In this document: one piece after another, positions 16,430 to 19,575 of the stretch
Position numbering within the stretch: position 1 is the stretch's first letter
Layout of the letters: each line of letters begins with the position of its first letter
From: Geobacteraceae bacterium
Lineage (GTDB): Bacteria > Desulfobacterota > Desulfuromonadia > Geobacterales > Pseudopelobacteraceae
Direction of reading: 5' to 3'
Length of the DNA: 64,000 bases
NCBI GenBank assembly: GCA_025355965.1
Contig: JANXYR010000043.1
Coordinates: 62,001-126,000 of the forward strand
Program-made: the position numbers and the translations under genes
The notes under the pieces: generated by a model
What the model saw: the letters and a program-made list of their open reading frames with translations, nothing else
Told to the model about the DNA's origin: nothing
The model's database searches: none

Positions 16430-16457
16430 TTGACAAGCCTCCCCGTTGGGGTAAGAT
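16430..16457 (+). promoter_or_regulatory. Promoter for the riboswitch-controlled L,D-transpeptidase operon
   Basis: TTGACA (16430-16435), a 16-base spacer and TAAGAT (16452-16457) give a sigma-70-type promoter whose start would lie just before the GEMM aptamer. The spacer holds a small palindrome, CCCC-gtt-GGGG, which could be a protein site. Confidence 0.65.
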
Positions 16458-16487
16458 GCCCGCGAACAAAGCATGGTTCTATACATT

Positions 16488-16603
16488 GGTTAAACGATAA
16501 TACTAAACCATTCGTGAGAATGGGACGGAAAGCCTACAGGGTCTCACAGAGACAGCCGGGTCGCCGAAATATCCAGAAGATATTCGGTGACCCGGCTTTT
16601 TTT
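16488..16603 (+). promoter_or_regulatory. GEMM-I riboswitch, cGAMP-type (GEMM-Ib), with terminator
   Basis: The GEMM core is complete: AAACCATTCGTGAGAATGG (P2 stem with its tetraloop region), GGACGGAAAGCCTACAGGG, a P3 hairpin (GTCTCACAGAGAC), and AGCCGGGTCGCCGAA. The last strand also pairs with TTCGGTGACCCGGC, followed by seven Ts, making a terminator that competes with the aptamer. Aligning to the Vibrio Vc2 aptamer by the AAACC block places A where c-di-GMP-selective aptamers have G20. That G20A change is the published hallmark of Geobacter riboswitches preferring 3',3'-cGAMP. Ligand preference is inferred from my hand alignment. Confidence 0.88.
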
Positions 16604-16717
16604 GTGCCATCATATTGGATCAGGGCAAGTGTGCCGGACGCACGATAATTGTCAGGAAAGAGTAGAGCTGCGGTGAGGCTCGGCGTAACGATCCGGGTAG
16701 AAGAGAGGAATACAATA

Positions 16718-18076
16718 TTGAAAGGACCTTATTTACCCATGTGCCGAATCATTGAGCTGTTACCCTTATCCAATACACTTCGTCTTATAGCTCTTTTTGT
16801 CGTTATATTATCTCTTCAGGGATGTACGACAATGACAAGAGCTCATGAGGAAGAGCAGCTTATTCCAAGATATATGGAAGAAAATATCGAACGAAATGAG
16901 TTTTCTGTTGCAAAAGGAGATGATGTCATTGGTCGATTGAGTTTCATTCGTCTTGAGAAGGGAGATACGCTACCGGATATTGCAAGACACTTCAGCTTGG
17001 GACTTAATGGAGTCAGCGCATCTAATCCTGGAGTAGATATATGGGTGCCTAAAGCTGGAGAACGTATCATGTTGCCTCTGAGTTTTATCCTGCCGGACGC
17101 CCCTAGAAAAGGCATTGTGATCAACTTGGCCGCAATGAGGCTTTTTGAATTTAAAGGAAATAGTGAGCCACTGGCAGTGTTGACCTACCCGGTCGGTGTC
17201 GGTACCGAAGAGCGCCCCACGCCCAGAGGTATAATGCGTGTGGAGCGCAAGGTAACCAGGCCGACCTGGCATGTACCGGCCTCAATTGCCAAGGATCATC
17301 TGAAAAAAGGAGATCCTTTGCCCGCTGCAGTTCTGCCGGGACCTCTTAATCCCTTGGGAGAATACGCGCTCTATTTAAGTGCGCCGAGTTACTTGATCCA
17401 TGGCACTAACAAACCGGCCAGCATTGGTCTTAGGGCATCCAATGGATGCATAAGACTCTTTCCGGAAAGCGTGAAAAAGCTCTATGAGAACACTCCGGTT
17501 AAAACCCCTGTAAACATTGTTAACCAGCCATATCTCTTAGGTCTTAGCAATGGAGTGGTTTACATGGAAGTTCATGCGTCCACGGACAACTTGGACGCCG
17601 CTGAGTTTGATAAGGTATATGCAAAATTGAAAGCTATTGAAAAGGAATCAGGACGCATGTTTGACTGGAGTAAAGTTAAGAACGTATTGGCCGAGGCTCG
17701 CGGGATTCCTGTCCCCATATTCGAGATCAGGCAAGGAAGTGGAAAAGAGGTTGCGGAACCCATAGAGGTTAAGCACCCAGGCAAATTATTTGGCAGCCCA
17801 GAAATACCGGAGCTGAAAACAGATGCGTGGTCTGTTTTGGCTGCTGATGTGCGTGACGAGATTGATGCAGTGAGGCTTTCCGCCATTATCAACCACCAGG
17901 GCCCACAAATCCCGGCAAGCGTGATAGCAGAGAACGATAGCTACCGTGTTGTCGCTGGTCCTTTCAATGATATCAGAGAGGCCAAAGATGCAATCAAACG
18001 TTTGAAAATTGATTTGGAACTGGATGGTAAATTGATTGAACCTATCAAGCGAGAGAGAGGAGGTGAAAAACTATGA
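16718..18076 (+). CDS. LysM-YkuD-SPOR lipoprotein, L,D-transpeptidase
   Basis: An N-terminal lipoprotein signal ends in the lipobox LSLQGC (lipidated Cys about residue 36). A LysM-like segment follows (LEKGDTLPDIARHFSLG). The YkuD catalytic domain has the conserved His in LIHGTN and the catalytic Cys in RASNGCIRLF. The last 60 residues look like a SPOR domain (YRVVAGPFNDIREAKDAIKRL). Such enzymes make 3-3 crosslinks or attach Lpp-type lipoproteins to meso-DAP. The start is uncertain: TTG 16718 has GAGAGGA upstream, ATG 16739 is also possible, and the ORF-track TTG 16649 lacks a ribosome site. It is first gene behind the GEMM riboswitch, overlapping the next gene by 4 bases. Confidence 0.88.
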   Translation: MKGPYLPMCRIIELLPLSNTLRLIALFVVILSLQGCTTMTRAHEEEQLIPRYMEENIERNEFSVAKGDDVIGRLSFIRLEKGDTLPDIARHFSLGLNGVSASNPGVDIWVPKAGERIMLPLSFILPDAPRKGIVINLAAMRLFEFKGNSEPLAVLTYPVGVGTEERPTPRGIMRVERKVTRPTWHVPASIAKDHLKKGDPLPAAVLPGPLNPLGEYALYLSAPSYLIHGTNKPASIGLRASNGCIRLFPESVKKLYENTPVKTPVNIVNQPYLLGLSNGVVYMEVHASTDNLDAAEFDKVYAKLKAIEKESGRMFDWSKVKNVLAEARGIPVPIFEIRQGSGKEVAEPIEVKHPGKLFGSPEIPELKTDAWSVLAADVRDEIDAVRLSAIINHQGPQIPASVIAENDSYRVVAGPFNDIREAKDAIKRLKIDLELDGKLIEPIKRERGGEKL

Positions 18077-18417
18077 AGAAGAATCTTTTAGTGATCTCAA
18101 TGATGCTTGTTCTTGCAACTACTTTGGGTGGTTGTGCAACAACGGGTGACCTTGCGAAAGTTCAGTCGCAGCAAATGGCGACTGGTGCAAAAGCTGATCA
18201 GGCAGCGCAGGATGCGCAGGCTGCCAAGGCGGCAGCTGATGCGGCCACGATAAAGGCAGAGGCTGCCGCAACCCGAGCAGAAAATGCTCTAAAGCTGGCA
18301 GAAGAAAGGTCTAAAATTGCAGATGAAAAGGCAAAGATTGCAGATGAAAAAGCGAAGATCGCAGATGAAAAGGCGCAGAAGGCTGACGAGACTTTCCGCA
18401 AATCAATGAGGAAGTAA
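18073..18417 (+). CDS. Lpp/OprI-like alanine-zipper outer-membrane lipoprotein
   Basis: A 114-residue protein with a lipobox (TLGGCATTG, Cys about residue 21). A long helix follows, made of Ala-rich heptads and a near-perfect 7-residue repeat (IADEKAK three times, with flanking variants). The C-terminus ends FRKSMRK, with a terminal Lys like the E. coli Braun lipoprotein end (YRK) that L,D-transpeptidases link to peptidoglycan. It overlaps the transpeptidase stop by 4 bases (ATGA), so translation is coupled. The combination suggests a tether between outer membrane and cell wall. The repeat means length may vary between strains. Crosslinking is inferred, not shown. Confidence 0.85.
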   Translation: MKKNLLVISMMLVLATTLGGCATTGDLAKVQSQQMATGAKADQAAQDAQAAKAAADAATIKAEAAATRAENALKLAEERSKIADEKAKIADEKAKIADEKAQKADETFRKSMRK

Positions 18418-18461
18418 GTCGATTTATGTGGAACTGTTAACTTTTCTGTTAGTGCTCCGGA

Positions 18462-18498
18462 AAGGAAGTGGCAGGGTTTTGATACTCTGCCACTTCCT
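18462..18498 (+). terminator. Long hairpin between the Lpp-like gene and the second transpeptidase
   Basis: A perfect 13-bp stem, AAGGAAGTGGCAG with CTGCCACTTCCTT, around an 11-nt loop. No T-run follows, so it may only attenuate or protect the upstream mRNA. Confidence 0.55.
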
Positions 18499-18540
18499 TA
18501 TGCTTCCACCGTTCGATAAATGTCAGGAAGAGGAAGAAGA

Positions 18541-19575
18541 ATGGTTCTGCGATCATCAAACATATTACTAACTAACACGAAGTCGAATATGGGTAAAAAG
18601 CTACGTATATTGGGTAAACATCTAAGTTTATTATTTGCCTGCATCTTAATGACACCAATGCTGATATGCGGATGCAGCCACTTTAATGGGGGATTTGAGA
18701 CCAAGTCATCCTTTATAGAAGCAAATGATTTTTTCAGCCAGGGAAACTACAAGGCCTCTCTGAGCAAATATCAGCAGATTATTGAAAAATATCCCACGGC
18801 GGGAGAGAGGGCTCTTTTCGAGATGGGTATTATTTATGCGCATCCTGGCAATGGGCAGAAGGATTATCAGAAATCTCTCGAATGTTTTCATAAACTCATA
18901 AAGGATTACCCGGGGAGTGAATATAAGAAGGACAGTGAGTTGATGATATTTAATGTCAATAATGTCATTGTCAAAGATCAGACGATTGCTACGCAGCAGG
19001 CACAGATCGAGGCTCTCCGACAAGATGTTCAACGTAGAGGGAATGAGAATATTACCCTGCAAAAAAAGATTGAAGCGCTTGAACAAGAGGTTAGGAGTAA
19101 AGAGAATGAACATATTAAACTGCAAAAAGAGATTTTTGTAATCCCGAAGGAACCGGCAGACAAGATTCTGATAGAAAAGAAAGAACGACTATTGACCTTG
19201 ATTTCAAAGGGCAAGGTACTCAAAACCTACAAAATAGCCTTGGGTGGGAACCCTAATGGTCCAAAAGAAAGACAAGGTGATAACAAAACCCCGGAGGGAA
19301 CATACGTTATCGATTCAAGAAATAGGGACAGCAATTATCACCAGTCTCTTCATATCTCCTATCCAAACGAGAAAGACAAAAAACGAGCAAAACAACTTGG
19401 TGTTTCTCCGGGCGGAGACATCATGGTCCACGGTCTTAAGAATGGATTTTCGTGGGTTGGTAATCTCCACACAGAGGTTGACTGGACGAAAGGGTGTATT
19501 GCCGTTACCGACGAAGAAATAGAGGAAATTGACAGGTTGGCGCCAAATGGCACGATAGTTGAGATAAGGCCATGA
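18541..19575 (+). CDS. TPR/coiled-coil lipoprotein with C-terminal YkuD L,D-transpeptidase domain
   Basis: The signal region ends in LICGCS, a lipobox. Residues about 40-130 resemble the TPR-like fold of BamD/YbgF (FFSQGNYKASLSKYQQIIEKYP, FHKLIKDYPGSEYKKDSE). A coiled coil of two imperfect repeats follows (LQKKIEALEQEVRSKENEH). The C-terminal YkuD domain carries MVHGL and the catalytic Cys in DWTKGCIAVTDEE. It is the second L,D-transpeptidase in the cluster. ATG 18541 is chosen because GGAAGAGGAAGAAG precedes it; the ORF-track ATG 18520 lies upstream of that site. It is separated from the Lpp-like gene by a hairpin and may have read-through or its own promoter. Confidence 0.85.
   Translation: MVLRSSNILLTNTKSNMGKKLRILGKHLSLLFACILMTPMLICGCSHFNGGFETKSSFIEANDFFSQGNYKASLSKYQQIIEKYPTAGERALFEMGIIYAHPGNGQKDYQKSLECFHKLIKDYPGSEYKKDSELMIFNVNNVIVKDQTIATQQAQIEALRQDVQRRGNENITLQKKIEALEQEVRSKENEHIKLQKEIFVIPKEPADKILIEKKERLLTLISKGKVLKTYKIALGGNPNGPKERQGDNKTPEGTYVIDSRNRDSNYHQSLHISYPNEKDKKRAKQLGVSPGGDIMVHGLKNGFSWVGNLHTEVDWTKGCIAVTDEEIEEIDRLAPNGTIVEIRP

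Follow-up and report, generated by a model that had tools for sequence, protein, structure and literature searches.

A putative cGAMP-responsive riboswitch upstream of a candidate Lpp-type tether operon in the Geobacterales

What is regulated when a GEMM riboswitch stands in front of two genes for YkuD-domain lipoproteins with a small alanine-zipper lipoprotein between them? This question is raised by a locus within a 64,000-nucleotide stretch of Geobacteraceae bacterium DNA (contig JANXYR010000043.1, positions 62,001 to 126,000; hereafter the window), for which a first-pass annotation had proposed cGAMP control of cell-wall to outer-membrane tethering. Comparison with related sequences makes it quite probable, in our judgement, that the leader is an ON switch for cGAMP and serves an Lpp-type tether together with enzymes for its attachment and perhaps its release. 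We know of no demonstration of second-messenger control of outer-membrane tethering. The features under discussion are collected in Table 1.

Table 1. Features of the switch-operon locus (window coordinates) and the second GEMM of the same genome.
Feature	Position	Strand	Evidence or remark
Candidate sigma-70 promoter, TTGACA-16-TAAGAT	16430..16457	+	Region's strongest promoter-like match, 10 of 12
GEMM-I aptamer (Rfam RF01051), GEMM-Ib type	16492..16568	+	46.1 bits; A at the nt-20 position
Intrinsic terminator	16555..16603	+	Arms 16555-16573 and 16579-16597, then a T run
Gene 1, lipoprotein, YkuD L,D-transpeptidase and SPOR domains	16718..18076	+	PF03734 2e-22; PF05036 2e-08
Gene 2, Lpp/OprI-type alanine-zipper lipoprotein	18073..18417	+	PF11839 (Alanine_zipper) 1.5e-08; NF040598 64.7 bits
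Strong hairpin between genes 2 and 3	18459..18496	+	Long stem around GGAAGTGGCAG...CTGCCACTTCC; no clean T run
Gene 3, lipoprotein, TPRs, probable coiled coil, C-terminal YkuD	18520..19575	+	PF03734 2.4e-17; TPR_6 6.2e-08
Second GEMM of the genome (L002)	G000:C41:10634-10710		A20; upstream of a multihaem cytochrome-like gene

The leader was assessed with the Rfam covariance model for c-di-GMP-I (GEMM-I) aptamers. The match lies above the curated gathering score of 35 (E-value of 7.9e-06 for the window), so the sequence belongs to this family and the full GEMM-I aptamer claimed in the first-pass annotation is confirmed. Only two GEMMs were found in the whole genome (3.35 Mb in 86 contigs), this being one of them, and in both the alignment has A at model position 11. 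If that position is equated with nucleotide 20 of Vc2, as we propose, both aptamers carry the A20 that marks the GEMM-Ib subclass, and the A reported earlier in place of G20 was correctly read. The gene behind the other GEMM encodes a multihaem protein with CXXCH motifs, which also contains MG2 and chitobiase C-terminal-like domains.

The overlap of aptamer and terminator, also noted earlier, was recovered in our analysis: the 5′ arm of this strong intrinsic terminator, GCCGGGUCGCCGAAAUAUC, comprises the aptamer's final 14 nt and the next 5 nt, which means that the two structures are mutually exclusive. The minimum-energy fold of the leader includes the terminator, at −49.8 kcal/mol compared with −22.6 kcal/mol when the terminator is forbidden. 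As far as can be read from its sequence, this layout is that of an ON switch. Promoter-like sites were sought with a sigma-70-type scan, in which the region contained no more of them than shuffled sequence did. The same scan gave no promoter-like site in the approximately 115 nt that separate gene 1 from the terminator, but such scans prove little.

A switch of this type calls for a signal source. Of the roughly 30 GGDEF domains encoded in the genome, almost every one keeps the canonical Asp. In one protein of 454 residues, L053 (G000:C7:180857-182218), which combines a receiver with a GGDEF domain, the signature reads GHLVGS, with Ser replacing the Asp. Its closest solved structure is the Geobacter Hypr GGDEF fusion 6D9M, matched at 1e-58 compared with 6e-42 for the next best. 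These signs identify L053 as orthologous to the cGAMP synthase GacA, complete with the Hypr serine, and place a Hypr GGDEF enzyme alongside the A20 aptamers in one genome. The finding led us to reject the possibility that no source of the signal is encoded in this genome. GacA orthologues are present in 124 of the 141 genomes of the order, and the signature Ser is kept in all 30 that were fetched. Two genomes, G129 and G067, have the switch and gave no GacA match under 1e-60; the former encodes a GGDEF protein (L230) with the identical GHLVGS signature, and no Ser-signature GGDEF was seen among the loci read from the latter. We also see Thr at the Hypr signature position in proteins from two genera, L057 (G000:C68:2895-3365) and L231, with the signatures GHFAGT and GHLAGT; the Thr-signature protein is possibly a second unusual cyclase.

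We then searched both the GTDB collection and the 141 genomes of the order for orthologues of gene 1 and removed identical rows. The surveyed loci are the better-scoring, and hence close, orthologues, some genomes having none. Within the order, a GEMM is found upstream in all 52 distinct operons examined, the window included, and 34 of these have two aptamers in tandem. The survey yielded 87 aptamers, namely 86 at the YkuD/Lpp operon and the cytochrome-linked one of the window's genome. A20 is present in 85, and a terminator pairs with the 3′ strand of the aptamer in 86; the sole surveyed aptamer for which no overlapping terminator was detected is at L085 (1393-1468). The top-scoring GEMMs in other contexts of the order have G20. 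The two G20 aptamers that do precede the YkuD/Lpp operon are at L145 (3836-3913) and L088 (4-80), and one of them has an A20 tandem partner, a pairing that possibly accepts both cGAMP and c-di-GMP as inputs. Where the sequence extends far enough, almost every locus has gene 2 close behind gene 1 and gene 3 behind gene 2. Further A20 GEMMs occur downstream of the operon in some relatives (L093 4811-4887, L096 5922-5998 and L098 8535-8611), those of L093 and L098 lying ahead of small secreted proteins with many charged residues. At the corresponding place in the window no such GEMM was found.

Outside the order the picture is different. No GEMM reached the gathering score in the 33 tree rows from Nitrospirota, Syntrophaceae, Desulfobacterales and other or loosely named lineages, where weak aptamers below the threshold are possible. 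One of these rows, L103, has about 390 nt of upstream sequence, which is sufficient for the usual aptamer distance. Because orthologous operons there stand without a GEMM, the operon does not require cGAMP control for its function. A quick tree splits the rows that have a GEMM between two places, with the group that contains the window next to Nitrospirota rows. A single origin of the GEMM at the operon was rejected on this tree (p 0.012, for a clade that includes three nested GEMM-less rows), which is moderate evidence only, as the grouping under test was chosen with the tree already in view. Three histories would fit: two separate attachments of the switch, an exchange of genes behind a switch already in place, or uptake of the genes by Nitrospirota without the switch.

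We now turn to the products of the operon. For gene 1, translation most plausibly begins at the TTG at 16718 or the ATG at 16739, the mechanically called start at 16649 being less good. The protein has the lipobox LQGC and the catalytic loop NGCIR. Its YkuD domain, its catalytic Cys and the Arg at Cys+2 place it among the YkuD L,D-transpeptidases, and that Arg suggests a transpeptidase-type enzyme; the pattern NGC[ILV]R is found in all 60 orthologues that could be read, the pattern having failed to read a further 18. Gene 1 scores similarly with models of the Lpp-attaching ErfK/YbiS type and the 3-3 crosslinking LdtE type, with E-values of 3e-45 to 2e-50, all under the model cut-offs. The top NCBIfam match is LdtE at 172 bits, narrowly ahead of PRK10190 at 170 bits. 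The first-pass annotation had described a LysM-YkuD-SPOR lipoprotein, of which the YkuD domain, the SPOR domain and the lipoprotein nature are retained; LysM is dropped, as no Pfam match to it was obtained even at E-values up to 5, and the supposed LysM stretch aligns inside the LdtE/ErfK-type models.

Gene 2 is assigned to the Lpp/OprI lipoproteins by NF040598, with a score above the cut-off of 43 and a lipobox at the end of its signal (ATTLGGC). The mature protein has 94 residues and ends in SMRK, thereby carrying the C-terminal lysine expected of a wall-linked Lpp, and the alanine-zipper lipoprotein ending in RK that was described earlier is well founded. The SMxK terminus is present in 64 of 64 distinct Lpp-like orthologues. 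Their mature lengths are mostly 73, 80, 87, 94, 101 or 108 residues, with a few at 76, 90 and 96, so that the usual step is one heptad while the end is constant, which gives a ready-made series of tether lengths. A fixed end behind a coiled coil that is resized by whole heptads is what would be expected of a tether joined through its last lysine.

The TPR-YkuD lipoprotein proposed for gene 3 is likewise upheld by the domain matches. Its catalytic loop reads TKGCIAV, and Ala is found at Cys+2 in its orthologues wherever the motif is readable (62 proteins). At this position many L,D-transpeptidases have Arg, whereas DpaA, which frees Lpp, has Ala (PMC10653827, the DpaA structure paper). The match to the DpaA/YafK (DpaA/LdtF) model NF040599 is weak, at 44.1 bits compared with a cut-off of 365, and for this reason gene 3 is not filed as DpaA. 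It may nonetheless be a YkuD protein of a hydrolase-like type, DpaA or carboxypeptidase, that trims or releases the lipoprotein. The hairpin between genes 2 and 3 (−30.5 kcal/mol for the fold of 18441-18520) is possibly a processing or attenuating element, and could adjust the ratio of the lipoprotein to the second YkuD enzyme.

Taken together, these observations suggest the following scheme. The GacA orthologue would make cGAMP, which would bind the aptamer; the occupied aptamer would hold the strand that the terminator needs, RNA polymerase would read through and the operon would be expressed. The YkuD domain of gene 1 would most likely join the C-terminal lysine of gene 2 to diaminopimelate of the wall, and gene 3, as a second YkuD enzyme, may trim or release the lipoprotein. 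Life on a surface or by metal respiration, with cGAMP as its signal, would in this way alter how tightly and at what spacing the outer membrane is held to the wall. The cGAMP-type assignment made at first pass appears to hold, given A20, the GacA orthologue in the genome and the almost exclusive use of A20 aptamers at the operon across the order.

The ligand is most likely cGAMP, and A20 alone does not decide the matter. That the aptamer responds chiefly to c-di-GMP, or to both dinucleotides, is in our estimation improbable. The matching Rfam model is that of c-di-GMP-I, the genome is rich in GGDEF domains of the canonical kind, and the omcST switch of Geobacter, which is of the same group, responds to both dinucleotides (PMC6456294). 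Against this we set the near uniformity of A20 at the operon and the Gmet_0970 switch, in which the substitution A20G turns selectivity to c-di-GMP. The same side is taken by published expression data from G. sulfurreducens, where expression of GSU0181-0183 falls 16-fold without gacA (PMC6456294). This drop also bears on constitutive readthrough, or a promoter downstream of the terminator, either of which would leave the switch of little importance. The space ahead of gene 1 would accommodate a promoter, and the scan covered sigma-70-type sites. Given that no such site was seen there and that the overlapping terminator is so widely kept, this explanation seems very improbable.

A different doubt concerns the output. 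An ON switch for cGAMP could govern an operon for 3-3 crosslinking and general wall remodelling, in which the alanine-zipper protein is free or a minor substrate. The narrow lead of the crosslinking enzyme LdtE among the matches of gene 1 speaks for this, as does its SPOR domain, a domain associated with septal or wall targeting. However, whatever the length of its middle part, the Lpp-like protein keeps its C-terminal lysine without exception, and its gene sits between two YkuD genes in almost all loci long enough to show it, so we regard general remodelling as unlikely. That the operon tethers the outer membrane is an inference strengthened by the comparative data. No published test of such a role was found in the literature searched, within which the tether reading is new; it is supported by conservation and unproven.

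If the link to Lpp is true, cGAMP would govern envelope mechanics in addition to cytochromes and pili, and envelope mechanics under cGAMP control would matter for bacteria that pass electrons through the envelope. We would extend the tether reading only tentatively to a wider proposal, namely that cGAMP sets the covalent coupling and the spacing of outer membrane and wall throughout the order by means of one attach/release operon, that the tether has evolved in heptad steps, and that the switch was attached more than once or the genes behind it replaced. The conservation of the operon makes G. sulfurreducens an easy test organism, and gacA and esnD mutants exist there.

Published work on that organism provides the closest known system. 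The first-pass annotation regarded control of tethering as a new output of cGAMP; the connection is already in print, since GSU0181-0183, 'uncharacterized lipoprotein transpeptidases', are listed among the GEMM-Ib operons of G. sulfurreducens in a single sentence, without functional study (eLife 2019, PMC6456294). In the same work GEMM-Ib genes are up without esnD, and GSU0182 is listed elsewhere as a murein lipoprotein (PMC11934962, PMC7962754). The order-wide presence of the switch at the close relatives of the operon examined is an addition to this one-line link. Judged by annotation, gene order and riboswitch, the operon of the window is probably orthologous to GSU0181-0183 and part of the published regulon: in both, a GEMM-I precedes a lipoprotein-transpeptidase operon whose middle gene encodes a murein lipoprotein, and expression of the G. 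sulfurreducens operon requires gacA. The window's operon has one aptamer, unlike the tandem majority of the order, and its genome has two GEMMs compared with 17 reported in G. sulfurreducens. It also belongs to another family of the order, provided that Geobacter corresponds to family f4 of our grouping.

More distant parallels are found in E. coli. Gene 3 shares with the amidase DpaA/YafK, which frees Lpp, a YkuD domain, a weak model match and the Ala at Cys+2, but differs in its long TPR N-terminus and in a score so far below the cut-off, and may be a carboxypeptidase or a transpeptidase. With Lpp and LdtA/B/C of E. coli, the operon has in common an alanine-zipper lipoprotein, a C-terminal lysine and a transpeptidase-type YkuD loop. 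Unlike that system, it is a single unit under a riboswitch and its gene 1 carries SPOR, and the lipoprotein, at 94 mature residues (73-108 among orthologues), is longer than E. coli Lpp, which has 58.
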